Part shown: positions 16,939 through 39,106 of the stretch, piece by piece | Numbering within the stretch: position 1 is the first letter of the stretch | Layout of the letters: each line of letters opens with the position of its first letter | NCBI GenBank assembly: GCA_944323535.1 | Contig: CALUSW010000005.1 | Coordinates: 1 to 55,488, forward strand | Direction: 5' to 3' | Length of the DNA: 55,488 nucleotides | Origin: Candidatus Gastranaerophilales bacterium | Lineage (GTDB): Bacteria; Cyanobacteriota; Vampirovibrionia; Gastranaerophilales; Gastranaerophilaceae | The notes under the pieces: generated by a model | Databases searched by the model: none | What the model was told of the DNA's origin: nothing | The model's input: only the letters and a program-made list of their open reading frames with translations | Program-made: the position numbers and the translations under genes

Positions 16939-17928
16939 TTAAATTTTTAATGCATATTTATTTATTATAAACTCTGTTCTGGACCATACATTTAACACAA
17001 TATTTTTTTCTTCACATGCTTTTTTGAAATACAAATATAAATCACCGTAATGAGCGGGCAGCGGTTTTTCATCCAGATTTGTAAACATTGCCCATTTATT
17101 ATCTATTGTAAATTCAACAATTTTTATTCCAATATCACTCATTAAGTCAATAAATTTTTGTATTTCTTCAATATTATCATTTATATGTTCAACCACTATG
17201 TATTTAACTATTATAGGCGGATTTTCTCTTCCTTTTGCATATTTTCTTAAGTTATTAACAGAATCATTAAATTTATCCACTCTTTTTAATTTTTTATATA
17301 CTTCAGGAGTAGCACAGTCCAAAGCTGTAAAAAGTTCAACTTTATTTAAGTCCATAAGTTTATTTATAATAGGCTGATATACAATATTGTTTGTCAAAAT
17401 ATGAAAAGTCTTGACCCCGTTTTTCAGAAATTCTTTAACCATTGGCTCAAATTCTTTGAGAACAGAAATATCACCGCCCTGAATACATGCTGTTAGATTT
17501 CTTCTGTCCAATAGTTCTTGTTTATATAATTGCTTTATTAAAGGAACAATATCATAATATTCGCTTTTTTCTGCTTTATAAGTTATTTTACCTTTTGAGT
17601 CAAGCATTCTTGCGCAATATATACATCCGCAATTGCATTGTGTCCAGTGGCTTATATTAATCATATTAAATACGGGTGAAATTCTATCTTCAGGTTTTCT
17701 TTCTCTGAGGAAAAAACAACCCTTGCATGGAGAATTGTTAATATTTTCTTCCGTAAGCATATTAAATGCATCTTGTTTTATTTTTTTAAAAGCTTCCCAG
17801 TCTATTTTTTGACCTCTGTATGCTTCATAATATACTGGACCAATCTGTCCGGAACAGCAAGACATTATCCTGTCATGAAAACAAGATAATACATTATTTA
17901 ATTCATCGCAAAAATATTGTTTCCCCAT
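16939..17928 (-). CDS. Class I radical SAM protein, QGG variant
   Basis: A 329-residue member of the local family. The N-terminal domain carries C7, C24-C25 and C68-x2-C71. The radical SAM cluster is C98-x3-C102-x2-C105 and includes an additional C100 (QCNCGCIYC). The usual GGE motif reads QGGDIS, a feature shared with the genes at 30757 and 31807, as is the CC-xxx-GP stretch after the second Cys pair. The conserved YKKLKRVDKF and VKYIVVEHINDN follow. It is 11 nt downstream of the next radical SAM gene on the same strand, with AGGA before its ATG, and it converges on gmd at 7 nt. Confidence 0.86.
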   Translation of the reverse strand: MGKQYFCDELNNVLSCFHDRIMSCCSGQIGPVYYEAYRGQKIDWEAFKKIKQDAFNMLTEENINNSPCKGCFFLRERKPEDRISPVFNMINISHWTQCNCGCIYCARMLDSKGKITYKAEKSEYYDIVPLIKQLYKQELLDRRNLTACIQGGDISVLKEFEPMVKEFLKNGVKTFHILTNNIVYQPIINKLMDLNKVELFTALDCATPEVYKKLKRVDKFNDSVNNLRKYAKGRENPPIIVKYIVVEHINDNIEEIQKFIDLMSDIGIKIVEFTIDNKWAMFTNLDEKPLPAHYGDLYLYFKKACEEKNIVLNVWSRTEFIINKYALKI

Positions 17929-17939
17929 TATAGTCCTGC

Positions 17940-18950
17940 CTATAAATTAAGTACCAATGCTCTGTCATAAAATTCAAAAGCAATATTTTCATCAATACAT
18001 CTTTGTCTTATATACCTCAATAAATCCTTCACATATTCAGGTACTTCACCGCACTGACGGACAAACCATTTTTCTTCTATATCTGCTATCAAATATTTAA
18101 CCTCCAGCTGCTTAACGCATAAATCAAACCACTTATCTATTTCTTCTTTTGTATCGTTAACATTTGGTATAATAATATATTTAACACCCAGATCAACAGG
18201 ATTTGCTTTATTTGCCGCAAGTGCATATTTTTTTATGTTTGAACAAACATCCTTAAATTTATCAACTTTTTTCACTTTTTTAAATATTTCTCCGGAACCG
18301 GCATCAAGAGAAATAACAACTTTTATCTCAACATCTTTTCTTTCAAGTATTTTAGCAGTCATTTTACTGAATTTAATACCGTTTGTATACAGAGCAAAAT
18401 ATTTATTGCCGTACTTGGTAAAAATATTAATAATATCATCAAAACTTTTTAGAATAGTCGGCTCTCCCATAGCAAAAGATACATGTGCCTGAGGTGCTTT
18501 TTCAAGATTATATATTTTCTTTTCAAGAATTTCTTTAAATAAAGGGAATATATCATAGCCTTTAACTGTTCTGTGTTCTGCTATTTCCTGAAAAGAAAAG
18601 CAATAAATACAATTAGCATTGCATTCATTTGAATGCCCTATCCACAACATATCAAGGTAATTATCAAAGTCGGATAAGAATTGTTCGTCCGAATTCTCAT
18701 CAAATTCTTCAATCCAATGACAGCCTTTACAAAATGCAGGAATATCACCATCTCTCATATTCTTAACAAGAGTATTTTTTATCTCAAAAACTTTATTCCA
18801 ATCAACTTTATCTTTTGGTCCTTTGTATGGAATTATATAATTATTATTTCTTTCGGAAGGAGAATGAATGGATAAATGACAATGTCTGAAGCAGTCATAG
18901 TGTATATACAAACCATGTGCCAGATATCTGCATCTATACATTTTTCCCAT
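17940..18950 (-). CDS. Class I radical SAM protein
   Basis: A 336-residue protein. It has C7, C20, C24 (followed by His instead of the second Cys) and an AFCKGC pair in the N-terminal domain, then CNANCIYC as the radical SAM cluster site and AMGEPT in place of GGEP. FKKVKKVDKF and VKYIIIPNVNDT match the paralogues. The start is well supported by AGAGG seven bases before the ATG. It precedes the QGG variant at 16939 by 11 nt, an apparent two-gene operon that pairs two subtypes. Substrate unknown. Confidence 0.86.
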   Translation of the reverse strand: MGKMYRCRYLAHGLYIHYDCFRHCHLSIHSPSERNNNYIIPYKGPKDKVDWNKVFEIKNTLVKNMRDGDIPAFCKGCHWIEEFDENSDEQFLSDFDNYLDMLWIGHSNECNANCIYCFSFQEIAEHRTVKGYDIFPLFKEILEKKIYNLEKAPQAHVSFAMGEPTILKSFDDIINIFTKYGNKYFALYTNGIKFSKMTAKILERKDVEIKVVISLDAGSGEIFKKVKKVDKFKDVCSNIKKYALAANKANPVDLGVKYIIIPNVNDTKEEIDKWFDLCVKQLEVKYLIADIEEKWFVRQCGEVPEYVKDLLRYIRQRCIDENIAFEFYDRALVLNL

Positions 18951-19066
18951 AAAAACCTCTAATTACTATTCCTTTTAAATTATATCACAATAAAAGTAAT
19001 ATAATTGACGGCTTATGTTTATTAATTTATAATGAAACAATTAAGAGTTTGTTATGGAAATTTATA

Positions 19067-20620
19067 ATGGATAATAAGAAAATAAGTTCTTACTTATTAA
19101 ATTGTGTTATTTTATTTTTTATTTTTATTCTTTTAATATTTAGTATGAAATATTCGGTCATTGCAAATGATGATATGCTGGATTATATTATTAACCATAG
19201 AATAGTTTATCACGGAAGATTTTTTACCCATGCAATACAAATATTCTTTATTAAATATATTCCCGAAATTTTATCAATTCATGTTCAGGATTTTGCATTC
19301 ATATCACAGGCAGTATTGAAATCAGGCTTAATTGTATTTTTATTAAATGTAATTTCTCTCTCTTTTTTCCGGTTTGAAAATAAAAGAATTTTTTTACCTT
19401 TAATTAATATATTTAGTTTTTTATTATTCTTTGCTTTCATATTTAAACTTAAATTTATGTTTGGTATTGAAACATCAGCTTTCTTCTTTGGCTATGTTTT
19501 TACCATACCGGTTTTTATGCTTTTATGGTTTATGCTGTCTGATATATATGTAAAAAATGAGGTTGTATCAGGTAGAAAACTAATAACTTTTAATATATTA
19601 GTGATTTTAAATGCTATGTCTAATGAAGAATACTTTTTTGTAACTTTATTTTTACTTTTTTGCTTTTTATTGCATTTAAAATCTATTCATTCAAAATTTA
19701 CAAAAAATGTTGTAATATTAATGATTATTTTAATTATTGCAGGAATTATTATATTCGTATCTAATAAAGGATTTAGTGATATTGTTAGCGGTTATAATTT
19801 ATCTTATAACTTTGGGTTCTCAAAAAAAGAAATATTTGATTTTCTATATGTATACACAAATAAATTGATTTATACAGTATTATTTTTATGGATTCCTTTA
19901 ATTTTCGGAGTTCTGGCAATTATTAATGCTAAAACAGAGACAGGACAAAGAAAAAAAATATTGTTATTCCTGTTATATTCATTTTTAGGATTTTTCTTGT
20001 TCTTTGCTGTTTTATATTTTCTGGGACCGTCGTTTACTTATGAAAATTATGCGGAATATTACTTGTTTCCGAGATACTGGATATTACATCCGGGATTATT
20101 GTTATGCTATTATTCTTTCTTAATTGCAGCAAATTTATATGTTGCCGGATATTTGTTCTATATTAAACAAAATAAATATTACACTACTTTGATATTAATA
20201 TTTGTATTATTATCTTCCGGTTTTATATGCAAAAATATTAAATGGATTAAATTTTCTTCAAAAAATAAACGCCAGACCTTATATATACTTGATAAACTTT
20301 CTGTTTTCTACTTCAGACAGGGAAAGCCTGCTATTTTGCCTGCCGATAATATTGATCTCATTCTACCTTTATATAACAATAATATGCCAAAAGATTTGCA
20401 AGATAAAACAGGTCAGGCTTATAAAAATAAAATTTATAAAGGTTATATGTATTTATTATATATTTATATTACGTACAAGGTTAATCCAAAATACGGAATG
20501 TCTTTTAAAAGTCAAAAAGAAGCTCTGGATGCGTTTTACAAAAATGGAGGAAGATTCAAAAGCGGAGAATTGAAAAAGCTGAATTTTTCATATATAAAAA
20601 ATGGTTTGAAGAGAAATTAA
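19067..20620 (+). CDS. Multi-pass membrane protein, possible surface-glycan transferase
   Basis: A protein of about 517 residues with roughly ten hydrophobic helices in the first 390 residues and a soluble tail. The loop after the first helix (ANDDMLDYIINHRIVYHGRF) has the acidic pair and length seen in GT-C glycosyltransferases and DUF6056-type proteins; this is a layout match. The C-terminal tail (ALDAFYKNGGRF then ELKKLNFSYIK) is homologous to the tail of the larger protein at 25311. I chose ATG 19067; TTG at 19049 with TAAGAG upstream is an alternative start. It is followed after 20 nt by a radical SAM gene on the same strand. Confidence 0.7.
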   Translation: MDNKKISSYLLNCVILFFIFILLIFSMKYSVIANDDMLDYIINHRIVYHGRFFTHAIQIFFIKYIPEILSIHVQDFAFISQAVLKSGLIVFLLNVISLSFFRFENKRIFLPLINIFSFLLFFAFIFKLKFMFGIETSAFFFGYVFTIPVFMLLWFMLSDIYVKNEVVSGRKLITFNILVILNAMSNEEYFFVTLFLLFCFLLHLKSIHSKFTKNVVILMIILIIAGIIIFVSNKGFSDIVSGYNLSYNFGFSKKEIFDFLYVYTNKLIYTVLFLWIPLIFGVLAIINAKTETGQRKKILLFLLYSFLGFFLFFAVLYFLGPSFTYENYAEYYLFPRYWILHPGLLLCYYSFLIAANLYVAGYLFYIKQNKYYTTLILIFVLLSSGFICKNIKWIKFSSKNKRQTLYILDKLSVFYFRQGKPAILPADNIDLILPLYNNNMPKDLQDKTGQAYKNKIYKGYMYLLYIYITYKVNPKYGMSFKSQKEALDAFYKNGGRFKSGELKKLNFSYIKNGLKRN

Positions 20621-20640
20621 GCTGGTGGTAATATTTTTTT

Positions 20641-22080
20641 ATGAAATATAAAAGCTGCAGATTGTTAGAACACGGAATTTATTTTTATTTGGACCCCGGT
20701 ACGCAAAAATTGTGTGTTGGACATTGCTGTAATAGTGACAATCTTGATTATAATGACAGATTATATTTATATTTTGACCTGAAAAATGAAATTTTAAGCT
20801 GGGATTACATTTTTAGCGAAAAACGAAAACTAAGAGAAAATGCAAAAAGAGGAATTTATCCGTCTCAGTGCGAAGGTTGTTTTGAACTTACGCAGCGTGA
20901 TTGGGATAATGATGACTATATAAACCATTTTACAGCAGGTCATATTATGAAATGCAATTCAAGGTGCATATATTGTCCTACAGGCAGAATTCCGGAATGG
21001 CATAACAAAGAGCAGGATGTTAATATAAAACCTATTATTCAAGAGCTCCTTGACAAAAACTTACTGCGTTTTAACGGTTCTTTGAGATTTGTCGGCGGTG
21101 AGCCTACTTTAATGAAAGAATTTGACTGGCTTGTAGAATTGTTTTCTCAAAATAATGTACCTGAAATATATGTACCTACCTCTGCAATACGATTATCAAA
21201 AAGTCTTTGCAGAGCACTTGAGAAAGTTGACAGTGCAGCTGTTGTTACAAGTATTGACTCAGGCACAAAAGAAACTTTTGAAAAAATTAAGGGTACAAAA
21301 TTTTACAATATTGTTATTAATAATATGGAAACTTATCTAAAACATTCAAGGAAGAAAAATTTTGTAATACCTAAATTTATACTGTTTACAAATTATAATG
21401 ATACAGCTCAGGAAGTAAATAAATGGCTTTGTAACTGCAGAAAATCAGGATTTGTTGAAGTTCAGTTTGATTCAGAACACAGTGTTTCTTCCTCTGAACA
21501 CTGCGAAAATAAAAAATATGTAAACAGAACTCTTAAAATGCTTAAATACACGGAACTTCTCGCAGAAAAATATAATATTAAAGTTACTTCATTTCTTGCA
21601 TTTATGAACAGGGCAAATAGAATCTATGAGAAACAAAAGTTATTTTTTTATGAGCATAAAGATAGTTTTATTGATTTATATATAGATTCAAATGTTAATG
21701 ATATAGATACTGCAAAATACTATAAAGACTTGTATATAAAAAGTAACGACTTTTCTACAGATATTATAAAAAATCAAATAGATAAGCTTGTGCAGGAAGA
21801 GAAGTTCTCTCATAAACGCCGTGTTTTTATAAAGATAGCAAATCCTATGGAAGAAAATCTAAGCAAAAAATTAATGCTGCTTTTACGGCTTGGTTTTGAT
21901 TTTAATATCCAAATTGAAAATTATGTAGAATCGGACATAATCGATGAAATAATAAAAACGAGTTTTTCTGATATTACATATTTAAAAAATAGAAATATTT
22001 TAGATTTCTTTAAAGTACGCAAATTAAAAGCAAAATACGATAATATGATAAAACTTTCCAAAGTGAATTTTGGGCAATAA
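20641..22080 (+). CDS. Class I radical SAM protein with extra C-terminal domain
   Basis: At 479 residues this is about 140 longer than its paralogues. The shared part has C6, C25, C29-C30 and SQCEGC, then CNSRCIYC and GGEPTLM, with FEKIKGTKF and PKFILFTNYND further on. The extension, from about residue 345, is a soluble alpha/beta-like segment without added Cys and without a family I recognise (YIDSNVNDIDTAKYY, KIANPMEENLSKK). It lies in the same direction as the membrane protein 20 nt upstream, so the two may act together. It converges on the next radical SAM gene at 3 nt. Confidence 0.85.
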   Translation: MKYKSCRLLEHGIYFYLDPGTQKLCVGHCCNSDNLDYNDRLYLYFDLKNEILSWDYIFSEKRKLRENAKRGIYPSQCEGCFELTQRDWDNDDYINHFTAGHIMKCNSRCIYCPTGRIPEWHNKEQDVNIKPIIQELLDKNLLRFNGSLRFVGGEPTLMKEFDWLVELFSQNNVPEIYVPTSAIRLSKSLCRALEKVDSAAVVTSIDSGTKETFEKIKGTKFYNIVINNMETYLKHSRKKNFVIPKFILFTNYNDTAQEVNKWLCNCRKSGFVEVQFDSEHSVSSSEHCENKKYVNRTLKMLKYTELLAEKYNIKVTSFLAFMNRANRIYEKQKLFFYEHKDSFIDLYIDSNVNDIDTAKYYKDLYIKSNDFSTDIIKNQIDKLVQEEKFSHKRRVFIKIANPMEENLSKKLMLLLRLGFDFNIQIENYVESDIIDEIIKTSFSDITYLKNRNILDFFKVRKLKAKYDNMIKLSKVNFGQ

Positions 22081-22083
22081 AAA

Positions 22084-23115
22084 TTAAGATTTTTTATTTC
22101 CTAATAAAAAATGAAGTTCTGATTTTAATCTGGTAAACGTAGAAATTTTTCTGCAATTATAAACTTTATTCTCAACAATTGCATCTGCCCAGGGTTCTGC
22201 CTGAAGCTCAAACCCTGCTTTTTCCGCCTGCTCTTTAAAATATTTATATGCTTTTATAACGGAAGCCTCGATTACCTGATTTGAGGTGGTACTCATTTTA
22301 CTTTCGACGTGGTTTACGGCTCTTGCAACAGTTTTAACACCTGCTATTTTACAAAAATTAAAAAATGCGTCAATTTCTTTTTTATTGTCATTTACATTAG
22401 GGAAAATGATATATTTAACTTTGATACGGTTTGATTTATCTCCGGCATCTTCTATGTATTTTTTTATAGTTGATGTAACTTCATCAAATTTATCAACACG
22501 TTTTATTTTTTTGTAGGATTCTTTAAAACCGCAATCAAGCGAAATACATATCATATTATGGTTATCCGCTTTCAGCATTTCACTTATAACAGGCTCATAT
22601 TTTATTCCGTTTGAAAGCACTTCAAGACGGCAGTTTTGTTTTAATAACAGTTTTACAATTGCAGGAAATTCTTCCAGCATAGTCGGCTCTCCGCCCATAA
22701 ATGCTACAAAAGTATCTGATGTAAGCCTGCCTTCTTTTATAAGTTTTTCTATTATCGGAAGAGCATCATAATCATCACTTTTTTTTATGCCGTTATGAAA
22801 ATCAGAATGTACAGAGCAGTAAAAACAAGCCGCATTACAATGCCTCCAGTTAAAAACCGTTATTTTATGAATTTTGCCGTCAAATTCTTTCCAGTCTTTT
22901 TCTTCGAGAATAGGGCATTGTTTGCAGCGTTCAGGAATTATTCCGTTTTTCATTCCTTTAATTATTTTTAAACGCCGCTGTTCATTTTTATCAAATGCAT
23001 TTTCTTCTTTATATGAAATATATTCAGGACCTTCCCATACCTCATTACAATACTTAAACCCGCTGAAACTGAGGTCTATACTTCCGAGAATATGGTCACA
23101 GCATTTATATTTCAT
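22084..23115 (-). CDS. Class I radical SAM protein
   Basis: A 343-residue protein with C5-C6, C23 and ERCKQC in the N-terminal domain, where the CC pair sits early and the later site is a single Cys. CNAACFYC is the radical SAM cluster site, followed by MGGEPTM. YKKIKRVDKFDEV and VKYIIFPNVNDN are the family motifs. The start has AGGAG eight bases upstream. It is convergent with the 479-residue paralogue, their stops being 3 nt apart. Upstream is a 371-bp gap before tRNA-Val. Confidence 0.86.
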   Translation of the reverse strand: MKYKCCDHILGSIDLSFSGFKYCNEVWEGPEYISYKEENAFDKNEQRRLKIIKGMKNGIIPERCKQCPILEEKDWKEFDGKIHKITVFNWRHCNAACFYCSVHSDFHNGIKKSDDYDALPIIEKLIKEGRLTSDTFVAFMGGEPTMLEEFPAIVKLLLKQNCRLEVLSNGIKYEPVISEMLKADNHNMICISLDCGFKESYKKIKRVDKFDEVTSTIKKYIEDAGDKSNRIKVKYIIFPNVNDNKKEIDAFFNFCKIAGVKTVARAVNHVESKMSTTSNQVIEASVIKAYKYFKEQAEKAGFELQAEPWADAIVENKVYNCRKISTFTRLKSELHFLLGNKKS

Positions 23116-23486: not shown

Positions 23487-23562
23487 GGGCGTTTAGCTCA
23501 GTTGGTAGAGCGCCTCCCTTACAAGGAGGATGTCAGGAGTTCAAGTCTCTTAACGCCCACCA
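23487..23562 (+). tRNA. tRNA-Val (TAC)
   Basis: A 76-nt tRNA with CCA encoded. Acceptor GGGCGTT pairs with AACGCCC, D-arm GCTCAGTTGGTAGAGC, anticodon stem CCTCC with loop CTTACAA giving anticodon TAC, and T-loop AGTTCAAGTCT. The other two tRNAs in the window do not encode CCA. Confidence 0.94.
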
Positions 23563-23590: not shown

Positions 23591-23614
23591 TTATTTAAAA
23601 TTTACGGGTGGAAT

Positions 23615-24319
23615 ATGAAGCATTTAGTAGTTATACCTACTTATAATGAATCAGAAAACATAGAAAATCTTATTAACAGAATATTTGAGCTGTATAAAGA
23701 TATAAATGTTCTTGTTGTTGATGATTCTTCACCGGACAATACATCAGGTATCGTAAGAAACCTGCAGCAAAAATATGCAAATTTATATCTGCTTGTGCAA
23801 AAAGGAAAACAAGGACTTGCCAATGCATATATAAACGGTTTTAAATGGGGAATGAATAACGGATTTGATTTATTTACTTCCTGTGACGGTGACTTTTCAC
23901 ATAATCCTGTATATATAGAACAACTTGTAAAAAAGATAGAAGAAGGATACGATATAGCATCAGGCTCCAGATATATAAAAGGCGGCGGAACAACGGAAAA
24001 AAATTTTTTTAGAAATTTTATTTCAATCGGCGGTAATATATGGGCTGATTTTATCTTAAGAACAAAAATGAAGGATATTTTAGAAGGATACAGCACATAC
24101 ACAAGAGAGGCGCTTGAGAAAATAGACCTTGATTCCATAACGGCTAAAGGATATATCTTTCAGGCAGAAATGAAATATAAAGCTTTTATACAGGGATTAA
24201 AAATAGTTGAAGTGCCCATCCTTTTTGAAACCAGAACAACAGGTAAATCAAAAATGGATTTATCTATAATCTTTGAAGCTCTTTTTTCTGTTGTAAAACT
24301 CAGATTTAAGAACAAATAA
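23615..24319 (+). CDS. Polyprenol-phosphate (dolichol-type) glycosyltransferase, GT2 DPM1-like
   Basis: This 234-residue protein starts at the ATG at 23615, which has GGGTGG upstream; a longer open frame runs back through the tRNA and is not real. VVIPTYNESENI is the GT2 nucleotide-binding start, VVDDSSPDNT the family's DxSxD region, and SCDGDFSHNP the metal-binding DxD-like motif. The later GSRYIKGGG and FQAEMKY are typical of dolichol-phosphate mannosyltransferases. It should move mannose or glucose from a nucleotide sugar to a lipid carrier at the inner membrane face, supplying GT-C enzymes such as its multi-pass neighbours may be. No membrane anchor is present. Confidence 0.9.
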   Translation: MKHLVVIPTYNESENIENLINRIFELYKDINVLVVDDSSPDNTSGIVRNLQQKYANLYLLVQKGKQGLANAYINGFKWGMNNGFDLFTSCDGDFSHNPVYIEQLVKKIEEGYDIASGSRYIKGGGTTEKNFFRNFISIGGNIWADFILRTKMKDILEGYSTYTREALEKIDLDSITAKGYIFQAEMKYKAFIQGLKIVEVPILFETRTTGKSKMDLSIIFEALFSVVKLRFKNK

Positions 24320-24338: not shown

Positions 24339-25289
24339 CTATTTATTTAGTTCTTTTGCAATTTCCGGTGCTAATACATCCCATACTTTTTCACTTGGAT
24401 GTCCGTCACCTTCTATACGATATTTCTGATCCGATATAGAAATATTATTTCTTAAAGATAATTCATCAGCATCAATTACATTTATTCCTTGCTCTTGGAG
24501 TTCATACCATCTGGGTGATGTAAGAAATTCCAAGCCATGGTCGTTATCTGCAAATAGAATTACGATAAAAATTATATTGGAATTTATTTCTTTTAAATCC
24601 TGATTTAGTTTAACAATATGTTCCTTGACCAAATCGAATTTACTATCAAAAGATGCAAAAATCTGCCAATATAATTTATTTAAATACTGATAAATATATG
24701 TTCTCTCAAATAGAGTATATTTATGAGGGACAAGAATACCATCTTTGTTAATATCAAAAACAGGCCATACATATGGTTCTTGATAATAACCGTTAGAATA
24801 AGTCTTTATTCTCCAAATATGTTCTCCCGTTATAAGCAAGACAGCATATTTACTGTTTTCTATTTCATCATCATAGTCACTGCTTTCTACCTGAAATAAT
24901 GCATGTTGAAGACCGCCTCCCGGTATTGAAATATTATAGACAGGTGCCTTCATTATTTTTGATAATTTTGCTCCTAATGTTTGTTCCGGTGTCAATCTTT
25001 CTCCATACATATATTCACATCCCAAAAGTATTACACCCGGATTCTTATATTCCGTTCCAAATGCAGGTCTTAATTTTATAGAATTTTTATTTCCTTTAAA
25101 ACGCAATTTTTTCCATAATTTAAAATTAAACGGTTTTTTTATCATGTAAAATCTACCGGAATTAACTGTATTATCTTGTTTTGGACATAGAATCTTATAA
25201 GCTATAATATTTGAAACTATAAAAACAATTAATAAAAATATTAATAAACTAATAACTGTAATTATTGTTATTTTTATATTTTTATTCAT
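24339..25289 (-). CDS. Membrane-anchored SGNH-hydrolase-like protein
   Basis: This 316-residue protein has one N-terminal helix (about 7-30), then an extracytoplasmic domain with an SGNH layout: VILLGCEYMYGERL at block I, YNISIPGGGLQHAL at block II and GDGHPSEKVWDVLAP at block V. The nucleophilic Ser expected after GD in block I is absent (GCEY), so it may be inactive, use another residue or bind glycan. It is the last of four minus-strand genes from the cupin at 29.2 kb, 21 nt after the TPR membrane protein, consistent with a role in surface sugar modification. Confidence 0.72.
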   Translation of the reverse strand: MNKNIKITIITVISLLIFLLIVFIVSNIIAYKILCPKQDNTVNSGRFYMIKKPFNFKLWKKLRFKGNKNSIKLRPAFGTEYKNPGVILLGCEYMYGERLTPEQTLGAKLSKIMKAPVYNISIPGGGLQHALFQVESSDYDDEIENSKYAVLLITGEHIWRIKTYSNGYYQEPYVWPVFDINKDGILVPHKYTLFERTYIYQYLNKLYWQIFASFDSKFDLVKEHIVKLNQDLKEINSNIIFIVILFADNDHGLEFLTSPRWYELQEQGINVIDADELSLRNNISISDQKYRIEGDGHPSEKVWDVLAPEIAKELNK

Positions 25290-27629: not shown

Positions 27630-27719
27630 AATTTCCCTTCGAAATCGCTCTTCAGAAATTATATGATATAAAAGAAATAAAATAAAAAATGTAACGTTAT
27701 GCAACAATAAAATAAAAGT

Positions 27720-28841: not shown

Positions 28842-29265
28842 TTATAATAACCCTATCATCTGATATTTCATCAAAACGGACTTTATCCTGTTCCCCTAAA
28901 TAAGGACCCTGCTTAACTTCTATCATGCTGACATCTTCCAGGCATTTTAACCCGTGCCCGCCGTATGGCAGAAACGCGATATCACCGGCTTCTAATATGG
29001 TGCTTTCAAGATATTCTTTATCTTGCGAATATAAATCAAGTCTTAATTTGCCTTTTTTTATAATAAGAACTTCCTGTGTATAATAAACTTTTCGTTCAAT
29101 AACATTATGGACATGCGCTTTTATAACCGTATTTTTAGGATGTTTCATATAAGCCAGCTGCCAGCTGCTGTCATTCTCAGTAAAAAATTTTATTCCGTCA
29201 TTTTCATAGGAATTTTTTATTATTAAAGCTATCTGCTTGTCTTTATGGAAAAAAGTTTTTATCAT
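28834..29265 (-). CDS. Cupin-domain protein of sugar biosynthesis context
   Basis: This 143-residue single-domain cupin has VIKAHVHNVIERKVYYTQEVLIIKKG split over motif 1 (H-x-H then E and K) and AGDIAFLPYGGHGLK as motif 2. Cupins beside DegT enzymes are often sugar ketoisomerases or epimerases of the FdtA/WbbJ-neighbour kind; here the neighbouring gene and 8-nt overlap support a nucleotide-sugar role. The catalytic set of FdtA is not obvious, so a binding or sensor role remains possible. It is the first gene of the minus-strand cassette. Confidence 0.7.
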   Translation of the reverse strand: MIKTFFHKDKQIALIIKNSYENDGIKFFTENDSSWQLAYMKHPKNTVIKAHVHNVIERKVYYTQEVLIIKKGKLRLDLYSQDKEYLESTILEAGDIAFLPYGGHGLKCLEDVSMIEVKQGPYLGEQDKVRFDEISDDRVIINE

Positions 29266-30756: not shown

Positions 30757-31752
30757 TTATCTCTTAGAATATCCTTGTTTTAATACTTGTTTTGTATAAG
30801 GGGGAATTCCAAGATCTATATGGTATTCTTTGCAGAATTCTTCCGCATAACGGATAATATCATAGTAGTGTTTTGGGATAGTAAAATCCCCGTCAATGAT
30901 ATCTCTATAGTCAATATCAACTACAATAATCTTGATATTAATATCAAGCATTTTATTCATAAATTTTTTAAATTCTTCAAGATTATCATTATAACCATGA
31001 ACTATAATATATTTAATAATAATCGAATCATTTCCGGCTGCAGAAATATAGCGTTTTAGGTTTTCTATCGATTTATCGAATTTATCAACCTGCTTTATTT
31101 TTAAATAAGTTTCCCTGCAGCCCGAATCAAGCGCGGTGCATAATTCTCCTTTTTTCATTACAAGAAGTTTTTCTATAACAGGCAGGTAAACAATATTATT
31201 TGTAGGAATATATATAGTTCCGACACCTCTGTTTAAAAATGTTTTTATAATCTCTTCATGATTTTTAAGGCAAGATATATTGCCGCCCTGAAAATCTATG
31301 TATAATTTTTCTTTATCAATTAGATTATTATCATAAAGTTCATTTATAAATTTCAAAACATCAAATAATACAGGTTTATTTTCATCTTCTTTTATTTTTT
31401 CATGCGTTCTGTTTCCCTGAGTACAATATATACAAGCACAATTACACTGAGTATAATGATTCAAAGTTATTTTATTAATCCTGAAATCAGATACTTCTTT
31501 ATATTCTGTAAGATGAACACATCCATTGCATTCCGCCGGAATTTTTCCGTCTTTCAGCATTTTTATATATTGTTTCTTTGCTTCTATAAAACCCGTTATA
31601 GAGTTTTTTTCGGATAATTTACTTACAAAAGCAGGTCCGATATTAGCGCTGCAGCATGGCTCAAGTGCATCTCTGCAGGAAAAATGCAGATGATTGTTCA
31701 TCAAAGGGCACATATATGATTTTTTATTTTTTTTAAAGTCGAAGAATTTCAT
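30757..31752 (-). CDS. Class I radical SAM protein, QGG variant
   Basis: A 331-residue protein with a lengthened N-terminus (about eight extra residues, Lys-rich) then C15, C26, C33-C34 and AECNGC. The radical SAM cluster is CNCACIYC, with an extra Cys between the first two ligands, and QGGNIS replaces GGEP. CC-SANIGP matches the CC-xxx-GP form of the two other QGG variants. YLKIKQVDKF and IKYIIVHGYNDN follow. It is convergent at 2 nt with the B12-binding gene and divergent from the QGG variant at 31807 across 54 bp. Confidence 0.86.
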   Translation of the reverse strand: MKFFDFKKNKKSYMCPLMNNHLHFSCRDALEPCCSANIGPAFVSKLSEKNSITGFIEAKKQYIKMLKDGKIPAECNGCVHLTEYKEVSDFRINKITLNHYTQCNCACIYCTQGNRTHEKIKEDENKPVLFDVLKFINELYDNNLIDKEKLYIDFQGGNISCLKNHEEIIKTFLNRGVGTIYIPTNNIVYLPVIEKLLVMKKGELCTALDSGCRETYLKIKQVDKFDKSIENLKRYISAAGNDSIIIKYIIVHGYNDNLEEFKKFMNKMLDINIKIIVVDIDYRDIIDGDFTIPKHYYDIIRYAEEFCKEYHIDLGIPPYTKQVLKQGYSKR

Positions 31753-31806: not shown

Positions 31807-32799
31807 ATGAAAAAAAGATATTACTGCAAAAGATTAAATGAAACATTAAACTTTGACGCACTTAAAGTTTTTTACTGCTGTGCAACAAGAACCGGACCTT
31901 CCATTGACATTCCGAAACCGGATAAAATTAAAGACATAATTACAAAAAGAAATAAACTTATAAGAATGCTGGATAAAGGTATTATTCCGGAAGAATGCAG
32001 CGGCTGTTTTGATCTTAAGGAACAGGAAAACCCGAAGCCTCTTATATTAAGTGCATTTTCAAAACTGCCAAAGGCAAATTTAATTATAGTAAAACACTTT
32101 AAACAATGCGACTGCAGCTGTATATATTGCTGCGAGCAATATCTTTCAGGCAGAAAAATTGTTCTCAAGTCAAAAAAAAGCGATTATTACGATCTTCTTC
32201 CTATAATTAAAGAAATGTATAAGCAGAATATTATTGATAAAAAAGAACTGGATGTCCATTTTCAGGGAGGCAATGTTTCTGTTCTGGACGAATTTGAAGA
32301 TCTGGTAAATATATTTATCGAAAACGGCGTCAAAAGAATTGAAATTGCAACAAACGGTATAAAATATCTTCCAATTGTTGAGGAAATCTGCCGCAAAACC
32401 TTTGTAGATATTAATATCTCCATTGACTGCGGAACAAAAGAAACTTTTAAAAAAATAAAAACCGTAGATAAATTTGAAGAAGTAAAAGAAAATATAAAAA
32501 AATATGCTAAACTTCCGCTTCTTTTAAGATTAAAATATATTCTTGTAAGAGGTGTTAATGATAATATTCAAGAGCTTACAAATTATATTGACCTTATGAA
32601 AGAAACAGGGGTTAAAAATTCAGAATTAATGATTGACCAGTGTGACAGCGAGTTTATCCAAAACGGAGAATTCAAAATTCCGAATTACTATTATGATTTA
32701 TTTGATTTTTATCAGAGAAAATGCAAAGAAAACAATATTGAAGCAAATATTTGGGAATATATAAGAGAAATTTTAAATAAAGGCTCATTTTTTAAATAA
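31807..32799 (+). CDS. Class I radical SAM protein, QGG variant
   Basis: A 330-residue protein with C7, C24-C25 followed by ATRTGP, EECSGC, and a Cys-rich radical SAM site CDCSCIYCC with two extra Cys. QGGNVS replaces GGEP. FKKIKTVDKF and LKYILVRGVNDN complete the class I pattern. It diverges from the QGG variant at 30757 and overlaps the end of the class II gene at 32785 by 15 nt on the other strand. It may be translated from a leaderless mRNA. Confidence 0.86.
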   Translation: MKKRYYCKRLNETLNFDALKVFYCCATRTGPSIDIPKPDKIKDIITKRNKLIRMLDKGIIPEECSGCFDLKEQENPKPLILSAFSKLPKANLIIVKHFKQCDCSCIYCCEQYLSGRKIVLKSKKSDYYDLLPIIKEMYKQNIIDKKELDVHFQGGNVSVLDEFEDLVNIFIENGVKRIEIATNGIKYLPIVEEICRKTFVDINISIDCGTKETFKKIKTVDKFEEVKENIKKYAKLPLLLRLKYILVRGVNDNIQELTNYIDLMKETGVKNSELMIDQCDSEFIQNGEFKIPNYYYDLFDFYQRKCKENNIEANIWEYIREILNKGSFFK

Positions 32800-33804
32800 A
32801 GTTTTTAAGATTTCGGGTAATTTTTTCCTTACCGGCTGCAGTTTTAACAAATACTCATTAACGCTGCAGTTATCATCTTTAAATATCGGATCTTTTAATA
32901 ATTTAACAAGTTTATTATATTCAGGATGCGACGGAAGAGAAACATCCAGTTCTTTTCTTAATTTTTCGGAGTTTATCTGTTCATGGTAGTTAATAAAAAA
33001 TGCTTTTGCCCTCATTTTTTTTGCAAATTTGACAAATTCTTTCATTTCTTTATAATTATACGCTGTTACAACAAAATTTAATTGAAGGTTCTGCAATAAT
33101 CCTTTGTTCTTTAATTCTGACAGGTATTCTACATTTTTAATGAGGGCATTAAAGTTTCCGTTTTCAACGAGCTTATTATATGTTTTTTCTGTGATTGCGT
33201 GCATGGAAATTGTAACAGTATACATTTTTTCAGTTAAAGATAATTTCTCAATCATTTCCTTTGTAAAAAGAATCCCGTTTGATATTATTTTAAATTTTAT
33301 ATCAGGATTAATCCGCACAATTTTTTTAACTATTTCAACAGAATGCCTGCTCGCGAATAATTCTCCTGCAGAATTTAGTTCAACAAATTCTGCTTGTTTT
33401 AAAACAGGAAAGAATATTCTGTCAAAATTTTCTTCTATTCTTTTTTCTTTTTCACGGTTATATTCTTCTTCTTCTTTATTTTTTTCATTGCGGCAAAAAA
33501 TACATCTTACATTGCACCTTCTGTCATAGCTGAATTCTATTTGCTTCGGATATTCACTTGTAAGGCTTGGAGTCATTTCATATTTATAAGGCTCACATAC
33601 CTCAAGATTGCAATACTTATAATTATTTTCAATAAACTGTTTTCTGAACTCTTTTGCCTTTTCTCCGTTCCAAATCTCATCAAACGTATTTTCAAAGATA
33701 TTGCCGAAAGAATAAAAATTAGTCCAATAACAGCAGCAGCAATATACTTCGCCTGTATTTTGTATTTGAATACTATAAAATGGGTGCCTGCAAATTTTAT
33801 TCAT
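32785..33804 (-). CDS. Class II radical SAM protein with N-terminal SPASM/twitch-like domain
   Basis: A 339-residue protein. The first 75 residues look like a SPASM/twitch domain, normally at the C-terminus: C5, IQNTGEVYCC with C22-C25, SFGNIFENTFDEIWNG and C65/C70. The radical SAM cluster follows at C97-x3-C101-x2-C104 (CNVRCIFC). The GGE-like motif reads SAGELFAS. No ribosome binding site is visible, but TATAGT lies about 10 bases before the ATG. It overlaps the class I gene on the other strand by 15 nt and lies 40 nt after the Tat-like radical SAM gene on its own strand. Confidence 0.86.
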   Translation of the reverse strand: MNKICRHPFYSIQIQNTGEVYCCCCYWTNFYSFGNIFENTFDEIWNGEKAKEFRKQFIENNYKYCNLEVCEPYKYEMTPSLTSEYPKQIEFSYDRRCNVRCIFCRNEKNKEEEEYNREKEKRIEENFDRIFFPVLKQAEFVELNSAGELFASRHSVEIVKKIVRINPDIKFKIISNGILFTKEMIEKLSLTEKMYTVTISMHAITEKTYNKLVENGNFNALIKNVEYLSELKNKGLLQNLQLNFVVTAYNYKEMKEFVKFAKKMRAKAFFINYHEQINSEKLRKELDVSLPSHPEYNKLVKLLKDPIFKDDNCSVNEYLLKLQPVRKKLPEILKTLFKK

Positions 33805-33844: not shown

Positions 33845-34807
33845 TTATGTCCACTCTGTTATTTCTCTTTTTGAGAATCCCCACTCTAACGGTTCTCCGC
33901 CATAACAAGTATTATGACATTGTTTACAATACCTGCAGAGCGGTTTTGGGGTACTTAAAAAATCATCAATTTCTTTTATGTCATTTACATCTGCAATTTT
34001 AATATAATCTTCTTTTGTTATCGGTATATCAACTTTAAAATATTCAATAAAAGCTTTGATATATGCATGCACATAACAATAATATATGTTCCCGCGAGCG
34101 TATACATTAATACCTCTATGAGGACAAGTAAATCTTTTGGCAATATAGTTTTGTGTGCCTTTTAAATCAAGAATATTTTGGCTCCAATCAAAACCTTCAG
34201 TTTCATTATAATTTTCATCTATTACTTCTCTCGTTTTTAAACTATATAACTTGTTAGATTTTACAATATCATAATGATATTTAAATCCATATTTCTTCGC
34301 TTTTTCTTCTATTACTTCCATATTAAAATCTACAGGATACTTTGTAATTCCAAAATCCATATTTGAAGTCTTTACCACATCCCAAAAATCATCGCTCATT
34401 TTATCTAATAAGATTCCGTTTGTTAGTATAGTTTTTTCGGAATTTGGAAATAATTCAACTGATTTATTAATAATTTTTGTTAAGTCAGGATTTAATAAAG
34501 GCTCACCGCCCATAAAAGCAAATGAAATTTCTCTATCCGGTGCAAGTTCCTTTATTTTTTCCATATCCTTTGAAAATTGTTCATAAGTAACAAATTCTTC
34601 TTTTGCTAATGGTGCATATACATCACAATTTTTACAATTTAAATTACAATGAGAGGATACTGCAACAGTTAGTCCTCCTAATCCATTAATTTCATAAAAA
34701 TCTTCTTTTTTAAATAAATTTTCCTGTTTATTTTTATTTGAAAAATGTCCCAGAGCGAACCCTGCAAATAGACAGGATGCCCCGCATAAAAAATCTCTTC
34801 TTTTCAT
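33845..34807 (-). CDS. Radical SAM/SPASM protein with Tat-like N-terminus
   Basis: This 320-residue protein begins MKRRDFLCGASCLFAGFALG: a twin-Arg RRDFL and a hydrophobic stretch, resembling a Tat signal but without a clear AxA cleavage site. The core is conventional, CNLNCKNC then MGGEPLLNP, and the C-terminus has CPHRGINVYARGNIYYCYVH and CRYCKQCHNTC, a SPASM-like Cys set. Exported radical SAM enzymes are unexpected because they need SAM and reductant. The start is firm (GAAGGGG before ATG). It precedes the class II gene at 32785 by 40 nt, so the pair may be co-expressed. Confidence 0.84.
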   Translation of the reverse strand: MKRRDFLCGASCLFAGFALGHFSNKNKQENLFKKEDFYEINGLGGLTVAVSSHCNLNCKNCDVYAPLAKEEFVTYEQFSKDMEKIKELAPDREISFAFMGGEPLLNPDLTKIINKSVELFPNSEKTILTNGILLDKMSDDFWDVVKTSNMDFGITKYPVDFNMEVIEEKAKKYGFKYHYDIVKSNKLYSLKTREVIDENYNETEGFDWSQNILDLKGTQNYIAKRFTCPHRGINVYARGNIYYCYVHAYIKAFIEYFKVDIPITKEDYIKIADVNDIKEIDDFLSTPKPLCRYCKQCHNTCYGGEPLEWGFSKREITEWT

Positions 34808-34936
34808 AATTCCCCTTCATCATTATCGTATATAAGTCTAAAATATTATATGTTTCTATTAAAAGGCAATATTAATATATTAAAGTTATTATATGATTTT
34901 ATGTTATACTTAAACTATTAATAATGGAGAAATATT

Positions 34937-35926
34937 TTGAAATATTTGAGCTGTTCTAACATACAAAACGGATTGAGATTTGAATATAACAGTATTAAGC
35001 TTTGTTGTTTTATGGGAACAAATACTCCGGAACCGCTTTATGTAAAGAAAGATTTCTACGGAGAAAAGCTTAATTGGAAGGAACTTCTTGAGAATATAAA
35101 TACAATCCGCGAAAATCAAAAAAAAGGAATTACAGATTCACACTGTATAGGCTGTTTCGGGCTTCAGGAACAGGACTGGGATGATAATACAAAATTTAAA
35201 TGGATTCAAATAGCACACTGGGCAGATTGTAATTGTTATTGTACATATTGCTATCGTTATCAAAATGAATTCGAGAAACCAAAAAAACGTTACAAAATCA
35301 TGCCGATTATTAAAGAACTTGATAAAATGGGGCTGTTGGATTATAACGGAGAGCTGGCATACTCCGGAGGTGAGCCTGCAAGCTTAAGAGAATTTGATGA
35401 TATAACAAACTTTTTCCTTAAAAAAGGCGAAAAACTTATCATGGTGCATACTAATGCCATAAAACCCGTTAAGTCTGTTCTAAAAGGACTGCCATCCGAT
35501 ACAATGTCTGTTACGGTCAGTGTAGACTGCGGCGACCGAGAAAAATTTAAACAGATTAAACGCATAGATGCATATAATAAAGTTATAGATACACTAAAAA
35601 AATATGTTAAGGCACAAGGAAATAATAAAAAAATGGTTCGCTCAAAATATATTATTATTCCGAATGTCAATGACACAAAACAGGATATTGATAAGTGGAT
35701 TGAAGAAACATTAAAGATAGGCATTGAGCAGGTAATTGTGGATTTTGAAGCAGATTGGCTGGCAAGAAATTCTGATAATATTCCGCCTCATATCGATGAA
35801 ATATTTAATTATCTTGTAGAAACAACGCAAAATAGAGGGTTAAATCTTGAATATTACGGTGTTGCGAACCAGTACAGAGCGTTAAAACATCCGGAAGGAT
35901 TAAACTACGGGCTTCATCAAGAATAG
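34937..35926 (+). CDS. Class I radical SAM protein
   Basis: A 329-residue protein starting with TTG at 34937, backed by GGAGA six bases upstream and by alignment with paralogues that begin MKYxSC. It has C6, C23-C24, DSHCIGC and CNCYCTYC, which holds an extra Cys as in the QGG variants, yet keeps SGGEPA. FKQIKRIDAY and SKYIIIPNVNDT are class I motifs. It stands divergent from the Tat-like gene and faces the class II operon at 36-39 kb. Confidence 0.86.
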   Translation: MKYLSCSNIQNGLRFEYNSIKLCCFMGTNTPEPLYVKKDFYGEKLNWKELLENINTIRENQKKGITDSHCIGCFGLQEQDWDDNTKFKWIQIAHWADCNCYCTYCYRYQNEFEKPKKRYKIMPIIKELDKMGLLDYNGELAYSGGEPASLREFDDITNFFLKKGEKLIMVHTNAIKPVKSVLKGLPSDTMSVTVSVDCGDREKFKQIKRIDAYNKVIDTLKKYVKAQGNNKKMVRSKYIIIPNVNDTKQDIDKWIEETLKIGIEQVIVDFEADWLARNSDNIPPHIDEIFNYLVETTQNRGLNLEYYGVANQYRALKHPEGLNYGLHQE

Positions 35927-36043
35927 AATTTTATCGACTATCTTGCTTTTCTTCCACTCGAATAAAATATCGACTGAGTCTTAATGTTTTTTCGGCTCTT
36001 TCTGTTCGCTATCTTATCTTCGAATATTAGGATTTCCGTTTTC

Positions 36044-37066
36044 TTAAAATTTATTCTTCAGCTTGTCCAGAAAAGTTACAGGTTTTAAACCGGTAAAATA
36101 GTCAAGACCCTGAATAACAATATCTTTTGATTCTTTTATATCTTTATTTTGAAAAGTTTTTACAAGCTTATTATAATCAGGATGTTTTCTATCCTGAATA
36201 TTTATTTTCTTATATATTTCTTCACAGTCCTTAGAACAATCAAGACCTAAAAGTCTTACTTTTGCATCCAGAGAACGGGCAAAATTAATAATATCTTTAA
36301 TTTCTTTATAATTTATACTTGTAACCGTAAAGTGGATTTCAAATCTTTCTATCTTTCCTGCTTTTTTTAAAGAAGATAAATATTTGATGTTTTCAATAGT
36401 TTTTTTATAATTTCCGCCTCTTACAATTTTGTTATATGTTGATTCTTGCATAGCATGTAAAGAAACAGTTAACATAGAAATTCTATCTGTCAGATTAAGT
36501 TTTTCTATATTTTCTTTTGTACATTGAATACCGTTAGTTATGATTTCAAACTTAACATTCGGAAATTTATCCGCTATATTTTTTATTAAATCACGTGATA
36601 TTTTGCTTGCAAAAACTTCTCCTACAGCATTTGTTTTCACATATTTTGCATTTTCCAGCCACGGAGTCAGTATTTCAACCAGTTTATCTTCTTTATCCTT
36701 TGGAATAAGAGAAGTTACTTTATGGTTTTCACTGCGGCAAAATATACATTTTACATCACAAAACTCATCCAAACCAAGAAGTATTCTCTCGGGCGGTTCT
36801 GAAATGAGTTTAGGTTCTTTATCACTAATTTTTTGAAGTATCTCAAGATTCTGGCAGCCGGGACAGAGAGAAAAATCATTATCATACAATTTTTGTCTGA
36901 ATTCTTTTGCTCTTTCGCCGTTCCATATTTCATCAAAAGATTGTTCAAAAATATTACCGAAAGAATAACTCTTAATCCAGCCGCAGCTGCAAGGATAAAC
37001 ATTGCCGTAAGGCATAATCTCAGCCAGAATATAAGGATTGGGGCAATAAATATGTTTATCTGCCAT
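36044..37066 (-). CDS. Class II radical SAM protein with N-terminal SPASM/twitch-like domain
   Basis: A 340-residue protein from the ATG at 37066, which has GGAAG eight bases upstream overlapping the stop of the preceding gene; the frame extends to 37087 without support. C8, C26/C28, SFGNIFEQSFDEIWNG and C68-x2-C71 form the N-terminal domain, then CDVKCIFC and VGEVFAS. SLHAMQESTYNKIVRGG matches the other class II members closely. It is the third gene of a minus-strand set of class II, class I, class II, implying that both classes work in one process. Confidence 0.87.
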   Translation of the reverse strand: MADKHIYCPNPYILAEIMPYGNVYPCSCGWIKSYSFGNIFEQSFDEIWNGERAKEFRQKLYDNDFSLCPGCQNLEILQKISDKEPKLISEPPERILLGLDEFCDVKCIFCRSENHKVTSLIPKDKEDKLVEILTPWLENAKYVKTNAVGEVFASKISRDLIKNIADKFPNVKFEIITNGIQCTKENIEKLNLTDRISMLTVSLHAMQESTYNKIVRGGNYKKTIENIKYLSSLKKAGKIERFEIHFTVTSINYKEIKDIINFARSLDAKVRLLGLDCSKDCEEIYKKINIQDRKHPDYNKLVKTFQNKDIKESKDIVIQGLDYFTGLKPVTFLDKLKNKF

Positions 37067-37070
37067 AAAA

Positions 37071-38054
37071 TTATCTTCCGTTATCAATATATCTTATAAC
37101 TTCAGTATAACCGCAGGTTGTAAGAATTTCTCTGTAGGATAAATTGCACTTATGTTTATGTACATAATCAACAATAATATCAATATATTCCTTAACATTT
37201 TCAGGAAGATATTTGTTCTTTTCATACCAGTGATGTTCAAGTTCAAGCTGAATATTGGTTATACCTAAATCTTCAACCACTTTGAGCCATGCTTGAACTT
37301 CTTCAAGATTATCATTATAACCCGGTACAAAAATGTATTTTAAACCGATTAAACTTGCCTGAATTGGATTTAATCCTTTTTTATATTTCTTTATATTATT
37401 AATAACCTTTTTAAAATAATCGGCATTTTTTATTTTTTTATATGTTTCTCTTGTTCCGGCATCTATAGAAATCGTAATTGCGACTCTGTTTTTTTCAAGT
37501 CCCTTCTTAATCCATTTAGAATAATCAACAGCAGCAGAATTAATCATTATGAAAATATTGGTTTTTTCAAGGAAAAACTTCATTAAATCAGGAAATTCTT
37601 TTAATATTGTGGGTTCGCCGCCTGTAATATTAACATTTCCTTCATTACTTAGCATTCCCTGTTTTAAGGCATCCTGCAATACAGGAAGGATTTTCCATGG
37701 CTTTAATGAATTCAAATATTTCTTTTGATCATGTGTATGACAATATATGCAATCAAGATAACAATTTTCCCAGTGGTTGATTAAAATATATTTCAACTGC
37801 ATTGAACCGTCCCAGTCTTTAACCTGAAGACTCGGACATCCCACACAAATCGGAGGGATATCATTTTTAGCAAATCTGTCGCGGTATTCCTGTTTTATTT
37901 GCCTGATTTTATCCCAGTCAAATAACTCTCCTTTATAATCTTCTATAATTTTTATTGCTTCAAATTTCATACACATTGAATAACTGCACAAAACCGCAGC
38001 ATCTCTTATAAAGCACATACCGTTTTCCACAAATTCACAAGATAAATATCCCAT
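37071..38054 (-). CDS. Class I radical SAM protein
   Basis: A 327-residue protein with C6, C14, C23 and C28 (the CC pair is replaced by C-S) and PPICVGC, then CYLDCIYC and TGGEPTI. YKKIKNADYF and LKYIFVPGYNDN are class I motifs. It sits between two class II genes on the same strand: 38 nt after the one at 38093 and just upstream of the one at 36044, whose ribosome binding site overlaps its stop codon. This tight order argues for co-translation. Confidence 0.86.
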   Translation of the reverse strand: MGYLSCEFVENGMCFIRDAAVLCSYSMCMKFEAIKIIEDYKGELFDWDKIRQIKQEYRDRFAKNDIPPICVGCPSLQVKDWDGSMQLKYILINHWENCYLDCIYCHTHDQKKYLNSLKPWKILPVLQDALKQGMLSNEGNVNITGGEPTILKEFPDLMKFFLEKTNIFIMINSAAVDYSKWIKKGLEKNRVAITISIDAGTRETYKKIKNADYFKKVINNIKKYKKGLNPIQASLIGLKYIFVPGYNDNLEEVQAWLKVVEDLGITNIQLELEHHWYEKNKYLPENVKEYIDIIVDYVHKHKCNLSYREILTTCGYTEVIRYIDNGR

Positions 38055-38092
38055 CTCATAACCTCATAAACTATTGATAAAAATATTATATA

Positions 38093-39106
38093 TTAAAAAT
38101 TAGATTTATTAAATTTATTTTTTAACGACTGAATAAAGCTGATTGGTTTCATATTAAGCATACAATCATTAATAGTGCAGCGCCCGGAGTGAAATATCGG
38201 ATTTTTAAGCACCCGTACAAAATTATTATATTCAGGGTGTTTTTCATCAAAAATATTAAGCTTTTTATAAACATCTTCATTAGTTTCAAGTTTTAAAAGT
38301 TCAAGAAACCCGACCGTAGCACCGTATTTTTCCGCCATTTTAATATATGCAGCCATTTCTTTATAATTATATGCATTAACGACAAAGTTAAATATAAAGT
38401 TTGCCAGTTTTCCTTCTTTCTTAAGATTTGATAAGAATTCAAGATTTTTTATAACTCTGTCAAAATCACCGCCGATAACAAGTTTATCATATGTTTTTTT
38501 GTTTACGGCATGTAATGATATTGTAACGGATAGAAGTTTATTAATTATCCCGAGCTCAGTCAGATTATTTTCATCACATAATATTCCGTTTGAAATAAGT
38601 GAAAATTTTATGTCCGGATAAATTTCAGAAATCCGTTTTATAAGTTTTCTTGAATGCGGACTGAAAAGACATTCTCCGACACCTGAAAGAACGACATTTT
38701 GCGCATTTTCAAGCATATCCGATATAATTTCATCCATATTTTCGTTAAAGTATGATAAATCCTGTTTCTGGTGGCAGCTTCTGCAGAAAATACATTTTAC
38801 ATTACAGGTTGCGTCATAGCAAAATATAAAAGTCTTTGGTTTTGCGGCTGTTTCCGAAGGAATGACATTATGAGAACAATCTTTAACACATAAATTAAGA
38901 TCGCATATATTGTAATTATCGTTAATAAACTGTCTTCTGAATTCTTTTGCTTTTTCCCCATTCCATATCTCGTCAAAAGATTGTTCATATATATTGCCGA
39001 AAGAAAAAGACCTGCACCACGGCGGACAACATACATATACATCCCCCTGCATGCTTATTTGAGCGGATTCAAACGGATATGTACATATTGCATATTTTTC
39101 TGTCAT
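38093..39106 (-). CDS. Class II radical SAM protein with N-terminal SPASM/twitch-like domain
   Basis: A 337-residue protein from the ATG at 39106; GGCAGGA lies just upstream, and the longer frame begins with a TTG at 39124. C8, C26-C27, C31, SFGNIYEQSFDEIWNG, then C68-type Cys pairs (NICDLNLCVKDC) form the N-terminal domain. CNVKCIFC is the radical SAM site and GVGECLFS the GGE equivalent. SLHAVNKKTYDKLVIGG matches the other class II genes. It leads the three-gene minus-strand operon that ends the radical SAM region. Confidence 0.87.
   Translation of the reverse strand: MTEKYAICTYPFESAQISMQGDVYVCCPPWCRSFSFGNIYEQSFDEIWNGEKAKEFRRQFINDNYNICDLNLCVKDCSHNVIPSETAAKPKTFIFCYDATCNVKCIFCRSCHQKQDLSYFNENMDEIISDMLENAQNVVLSGVGECLFSPHSRKLIKRISEIYPDIKFSLISNGILCDENNLTELGIINKLLSVTISLHAVNKKTYDKLVIGGDFDRVIKNLEFLSNLKKEGKLANFIFNFVVNAYNYKEMAAYIKMAEKYGATVGFLELLKLETNEDVYKKLNIFDEKHPEYNNFVRVLKNPIFHSGRCTINDCMLNMKPISFIQSLKNKFNKSNF

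Follow-up and report, generated by a model that had tools for sequence, protein, structure and literature searches.

What would lead a gut bacterium to carry 13 radical S-adenosylmethionine (SAM) genes within about 22 kb? The question arises from contig C5 of the 1.90-Mb, 121-contig genome of a Candidatus Gastranaerophilales bacterium, a member of a non-photosynthetic, gut-associated cyanobacterial lineage; the 55,488 nucleotides analysed from this contig are referred to as the window. Thirteen radical SAM genes form an array at 16939-39124, and one outlier lies at 4911-5939. All 14 products reach the Pfam model PF04055 (Radical_SAM), scoring 35.9-103.4 bits against a gathering cut-off of 29.5, which bears out the gene count of the initial annotation, made from the sequence alone. 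The whole genome holds 75 Radical_SAM matches, so that only about 0.9 would be expected per 22 kb. The density of the array is therefore beyond chance and, as claimed at the outset, far above that of a normal chromosome.

The 14 proteins fall into the groups of nine, three and two that had been recognised by eye. Class I comprises the products of 4911-5939 (minus strand, 61.4 bits to PF04055), 16939-17928 (minus, 41.2 bits), 17940-18950 (minus, 50.9 bits), 20641-22080 (plus, 42.8 bits, with a C-terminal extension), 22084-23115 (minus, 59.6 bits), 30757-31752 (minus), 31807-32799 (plus), 34937-35926 (plus) and 37071-38054 (minus). Class II comprises 32785-33804, 36044-37066 and 38093-39106, all on the minus strand; for the last of these, 39106 is a more probable start than 39124. 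The two further types are a B12-binding radical SAM protein (29372-30754, plus strand; PF02310 and PF04055) and a radical SAM/Fer4_12 protein with a twin-arginine-like N-terminus (33845-34807, minus strand; PF04055 and PF13353).

In class I, four N-terminal cysteines (C6, C23, C70 and C73 in the numbering of 34937) precede a barrel with the CxxxCxxC motif. When 168 class I proteins of the genus and its sister genera are compared, the cluster-motif cysteines are present in all, the full set of seven cysteines is invariant apart from two gaps at C6, and K208, Y223 and N245 are likewise invariant. In class II, the SPASM domain PF13186 is matched above its cut-off and also sits N-terminal to the barrel (residues 5-66 against 95-261 in the product of 32785). 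A profile-profile comparison matches class I to class II over both the N-terminal cysteine region and the barrel (hhalign, 97.9%), and the four-cysteine domain of class I looks SPASM/twitch-like, a putative auxiliary-cluster domain. The canonical SPASM/twitch order places the auxiliary domain C-terminal to the radical SAM barrel, whereas here it precedes the barrel in both classes. In three class I groups, moreover, the SAM-binding GGE is replaced by QGGD or QGGN, and the replacement is fixed across species: GGD in 19 of 19 sequences for 16939, GGN in 11 of 11 for 30757, and GGN in 14 with GGD in one for 31807.

AlphaFold2 models of 34937 (class I; predicted local distance difference test, pLDDT, 89) and of 36044 (class II, modelled from a longer start at 37087; pLDDT 87) are confident, and both contain radical SAM barrels. 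Structural matches near the top for the class I model include PFL-AE, SuiB, SkfB, BlsE and DesII (Foldseek, VIA), those near the top for class II include viperin and NifB, and Mmp10 and anSME are also among the top matches. Of the nucleoside/sugar enzymes, BlsE fits the barrel with Z 13.7 and a root-mean-square deviation (rmsd) of 4.0 over 223 residues, and DesII with Z 13.4 and an rmsd of 6.7 over 240, but there is no sequence-level membership in either family. Since this barrel is common to the whole superfamily, such matches name no substrate and function does not follow from them; most of them leave the class I N-terminal domain uncovered. A defence role was considered and rejected: PADLOC pVip scores do not exceed 47 bits and cover the core alone, and the viperin model NF038283 gives at most 54.7 bits against a cut-off of 180.

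Do these proteins belong to a well characterised family with known substrates? No named NCBIfam cut-off is reached by the class I and class II proteins scanned (all but 37071, 38093, 20641 and 4911). The dominant radical SAM types of these genomes thus fall below every scanned curated cut-off, and current annotation would leave them as a generic 'radical SAM protein'. Judged by profile alignment, the nearest named family with the same domain order is NF033640, a twitch radical SAM family whose twitch domain is also N-terminal to the barrel; residues 14-322 of 36044 align to positions 4-346 of the 398-position model. However, class II reaches only 55.8-62 bits against its cut-off of 170, and the class I proteins that match do so weakly (for example, 26.2 bits for 30757).

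The expansion of these classes is a feature of the genus. The source genome encodes 31 class I proteins (nine in the window) and seven class II proteins (three in the window); six weaker class II profile matches are probably cross-matches. Of 22 relatives in the same genus, 20 carry 11-42 class I copies each; the 15 genomes drawn from six other families carry none or one. Across 292 genomes that sample the phylum, representing 115 genera, the strong class I matches outside the genus, among the at most seven matches scored for each genome, are one per genome and come from two sister genera of the same family. Radical_SAM matches number just 17-18 in the two same-genus genomes that lack class I; the other genomes of the genus have from 39 to at least 70. 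With multiple copies in one genus alone and ancient, conserved orthologue groups, limitation of the class I expansion to this genus is strongly supported, as is the lineage-specific expansion first proposed. Close relatives of one class I protein are from metagenome-assembled genomes of Candidatus Gastranaerophilales, including Candidatus Avigastranaerophilus faecigallinarum. Outside the lineage, a contig scan for close homologues, with patterns derived from one protein, found only MoaA-like proteins. We rejected a mobile or phage origin, as single-protein queries of viral contigs, phages and plasmids turned up no relative of class I. About 37 of the 75 Radical_SAM matches in the genome belong to neither of the two classes; this exceeds the 17-18 total of the array-less congeners, and other radical SAM types may also be expanded.

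Are the array genes recent copies of one another? About ten or more species have the array with its gene order retained, in blocks that are inverted or shuffled. Identity is mostly 61-91% between orthologues and 26-32% between paralogues. All eight array class I groups (w16939, w17940, w20641, w22084, w30757, w31807, w34937 and w37071) are monophyletic with support of 99-100 (99 for w16939 and 100 for w17940) in a FastTree analysis of the 168 sequences, which is not a careful tree. Ratios of non-synonymous to synonymous substitution (dN/dS) are 0.02-0.19 for these groups, rough values with dS near saturation, and the array orthologues are clearly under purifying selection. The most conserved group, w37071, shows 84-91% identity in the fetched arrays (leaving aside one second copy, in genome G014, at 56%) and a dN/dS of 0.02-0.05. 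Together, the monophyly of orthologues, their identities and the low dN/dS indicate that the array is a set of distinct, retained enzymes rather than fresh tandem copies. It is not a single operon, since the strand switches at 11 of 19 junctions inside the array, against eight of 25 elsewhere in the window.

The same data bear on whether the family has merely proliferated, selfishly or neutrally, with no shared pathway. Copies are scattered in unrelated contexts, their number ranges from 11 to 42 across genomes, and internal stops occur in three of the source genome's 31 class I matches, all of which would suit such a process. On the other hand, array orthologues keep high identity and low dN/dS, the seven cysteines are invariant, and gene order is preserved across species. 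We regard pure proliferation as very improbable.

What, then, might these retained enzymes act on? Gene fusions lend partial support to the editing of a glycan. In two species (genomes G007 and G015), the orthologue of class II gene 38093 is fused, through a hydrophobic segment resembling a transmembrane helix, to an SGNH-like domain (L078:13293-15221 and L071:13332-15263). A 637-aa class II protein of a third species (G005, L098) has an SGNH-like match in its frame and, from its size and this match, is probably the same fusion. In sister genera, the single-copy homologue is in several cases (g20, for instance at L090:5568-7454, g18 and g31; a weaker LbH score in g18) fused to a left-handed-helix (LbH) acetyltransferase domain whose best NCBIfam matches are WbbJ (79 bits) and WcaF (66 bits), both polysaccharide O-acetyltransferases. 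A single 993-aa frame in genome G548 (L126:421-3402, plus strand) joins PGA_cap, a class I-type radical SAM domain and an LbH acetyltransferase; other g20 genomes encode PGA_cap in a separate, adjoining gene. These fusions suggest a connection to enzymes of envelope-polymer acylation or of capsule type. Toward its N-terminus, the fused homologue had seemed to resemble the nucleotide-binding domain of PglD-type acetyltransferases, a likeness that no search bore out, and a PDB profile search with the fused-homologue family gave no useful match.

From these fusions and the sugar-related genes in the array, we propose with moderate confidence that the array encodes distinct radical SAM enzymes that tailor a polymer of the cell envelope. 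This would most likely be a glycan, or the lipid- or nucleotide-linked precursor of one, modified on the cytoplasmic side of the membrane. The parts of this proposal with direct support are the enzyme class, the cysteine sets, the orthology and the fusions. Each enzyme would reductively cleave SAM and abstract one hydrogen from an unactivated C-H bond of the polymer, and a predicted N-terminal auxiliary iron-sulfur cluster would handle the electron, giving epimerisation, dehydrogenation or a similar outcome. The paralogues may address different positions or different residues, and the LbH, SGNH-like and glycosyltransferase C (GT-C)-like proteins would then acylate or extend the product. A more specific version is only tentatively put forward: about a dozen non-redundant radical enzymes would edit a finished or lipid-linked envelope glycan position by position, fusions would couple them to acylation by LbH domains in the cytoplasm and by membrane-anchored SGNH-like domains, and the genus would thereby gain an unusual surface chemistry.

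SPASM/twitch radical SAM enzymes commonly modify peptides or proteins, and the array might instead act on precursors of ribosomally synthesized and post-translationally modified peptides (RiPPs), or on secreted or surface proteins, encoded away from the array. SkfB, SuiB, PFL-AE, Mmp10 and anSME are among the top structural matches, there is a likeness of the PGA_cap neighbour to MslH, an epimerase of lasso peptides, and many genomes of the genus carry dozens of copies, as if every copy had a target of its own. However, no NCBIfam maturase model is reached at its cut-off, and the domains fused to these proteins (O-acetyltransferase, SGNH-like and PGA_cap) include no peptidase or transporter. 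Apart from the gap that holds a tRNA gene, intergenic gaps in the array are at most 136 nt and contain no convincing small open reading frame (ORF) or noteworthy frame of precursor size, in agreement with the earlier remark that no precursor peptide is visible. A RiPP cluster in the array itself was thus rejected; precursors may lie elsewhere, and peptide or protein modification as a whole appears rather unlikely.

Several observations weigh against the envelope-polymer proposal. The structural matches to the peptide-modifying SuiB, SkfB and PFL-AE are equally good. PGA_cap is a loose label, its NCBIfam match being MslH, far below the cut-off. The SGNH and GT-C labels come from motifs, with weak PDB matches, and the SGNH-like copy in the window has GCE for GCS. 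The neighbourhood is also less telling than it seems. The array holds genes for a GDP-mannose 4,6-dehydratase (Gmd), a LegC-like DegT aminotransferase, a WbuC-like cupin and a DPM1-like glycosyltransferase of family 2 (GT2), but Gmd, DegT, the cupin and the B12-binding radical SAM gene are absent from the array regions fetched for several species in which class I and class II are kept, although such sugar genes may lie elsewhere in those genomes. Beyond the window, the 22 further class I copies sit mostly among housekeeping genes, and GT2 is not enriched near class I or class II in the source genome (two of 24 within 5 kb, P=0.74). GT-C-like genes were considered as class I partners and rejected: in the same genome four of five lie within 5 kb (P=0.0006), but the seeds came from beside class I, and class I or class II lies near just two of 20 other GT-C-like stretches from relatives, as by chance. 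The association is therefore an ascertainment effect. The view that the array modifies surface glycans, lipids or proteins has partial support, from the fusions to acylation and capsule-type enzymes, while the neighbouring sugar genes, from which it had been drawn, are weaker support than they look. Homologues without glycan neighbours, named at the outset as a sign against it, are what we find for the scattered copies, but not for the array.

The B12-binding radical SAM protein of 29372 raises the question of membrane lipids. The array might build or edit a membrane lipid, for example an unusual lipid A or glycolipid, with this protein as a lipid methylase or cyclase; its best NCBIfam scores are to BchE, HpnJ, P-methyltransferase and lipid B12-radical SAM models, all below cut-off. 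One class I copy outside the window (G000:C6:8195) lies near genes resembling acyl carrier protein, ketoacyl synthase and short-chain dehydrogenase (by sequence; unconfirmed by hidden Markov model, HMM), and class I matches the tetraether synthase 7tol with E 3e-7. That match, however, is confined to the radical SAM core, and MoaA is almost as close. The B12-binding gene is not found in several arrays, and the sugar genes of the array together with the LbH fusion favour a glycan, so that we consider a lipid target improbable.

The remaining genes of the array scored as follows. The Gmd-like gene (15912-16931, plus strand) matches PF16363 and reaches 403.5 bits to TIGR01472, against a cut-off of 415. 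The DPM1-like gene (23612-24319, plus) resembles polyprenyl-phosphate-sugar synthases of the DPM1/AglJ type (100 bits to PF00535; best NCBIfam match AglJ, below cut-off). Its start is probably at 23612, not at the listed 23480, because the ORF listed from 23480 overlaps a tRNA-Val gene at 23487-23562. The DegT/LegC-like sugar aminotransferase (27720-28841, minus) scores 328 bits to PF01041, with the LegC family as its best, sub-cut-off NCBIfam match, and the cupin (28834-29265, minus) scores 34.1 bits to TIGR04366 against a cut-off of 42.

The SGNH-like and GT-C-like families were found in this genus alone among 38 genomes. Window gene 24339-25289 (minus) encodes an N-terminal transmembrane anchor followed by the SGNH-like domain, as judged from alignment motifs; the family has no Pfam match. 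With GCE in place of GCS, this copy may be inactive. The positive-inside rule would place the SGNH-like domain on the outer side. In a PDB profile search, SGNH esterases were touched at block I alone (E 1.3-2.7), and the best match (E 0.003) was a designed protein. The polytopic membrane protein of 19067-20620 (plus) is GT-C-like by motif alone, with an invariant DD in the first loop and a conserved NE, and its family has no meaningful Pfam, NCBIfam or PDB match. The protein of 25311-27707 (minus), which has C-terminal tetratricopeptide repeats (a TPR match), joins this family by iterated HMM. Previously described as membrane transferase-like, these two are indeed membrane proteins, but neither matches a glycosyltransferase family even at E<=1.

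Some further features were observed in and around the array. The product of 33845 starts MKRRDFLCG. This twin-arginine-like signal is shared by the orthologues whose N-termini were compared, and the genome has TatC; to our knowledge, an exported radical SAM enzyme would be very unusual. In G006 (L066) the orthologous gene contains an internal stop, and in G021 (L067) it seems to be disrupted. The outlying class I gene at 4911 directly adjoins a gene for a Sulfatase-family membrane protein (3124-4908, plus; PF00884), possibly a phosphoethanolamine- or LtaS-like transferase, and lies beside a gene for a 972-aa protein without a Pfam match (6126-9044, minus). A dispersed repeat of about 125 bp, with 97-99% identity between most long copies, occurs in the window at 12674-12803 and, as an interrupted copy, at 41047-41265, and many times in other fetched parts of the genome (L051, L055, L056, L057, L059, L060 and L065). 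A recurrent N-terminal F-[KGT]-[GA] pattern was dismissed as unconvincing, with 13 of 249 proteins and no consistent context.

How new is this system? Like SkfB, SuiB, anSME and MoaA, the array proteins combine a partial TIM barrel, CxxxCxxC and a cysteine-rich auxiliary-cluster domain. Unlike them, they carry the auxiliary domain before the barrel, come as dozens of paralogues and have no precursor peptide found; their identity to SPASM/twitch peptide maturases is low, at 13-18%. One study describes SGNH proteins as commonly serving polymer acylation, and the PatB-type acyltransferases treated there share with our family the membrane anchor and, in most of its members, GCS...G (here near the start) and HP (here near the end) (PMC12148441). 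In contrast to that type, the SGNH-like family has no Pfam match, and its domain is fused to a radical SAM protein in three species (probably so in G005). Radical SAM genes also occur beside glycosyltransferase and nucleotide-sugar epimerase genes in a plasmid block of Brachyspira hyodysenteriae (PMC4267127) and among surface-glycan genes in the capsule region of Campylobacter jejuni (PMC8743553). The Brachyspira block has one such gene and no array, and its likeness is one of gene context. A search of openly licensed literature, in itself weak evidence, found no Gastranaerophilales radical SAM genes described in this way. We judge the SPASM/twitch radical SAM kind to be known; what sets this system apart within it is the combination of domain order, genus-limited expansion, conserved 13-gene array and acyltransferase fusions.

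Radical SAM enzymes that act on sugars have mostly come to light singly, in pathways for antibiotics and cofactors. If our proposal is true, the at least 11 distinct class I and class II paralogues would be a natural set of C-H-editing enzymes for a cell-surface polymer, and the fusions to O-acetyltransferase and SGNH-like domains would offer a concrete route to the substrate. The inverted domain order provides a natural test of whether the mechanism depends on where the auxiliary cluster sits.

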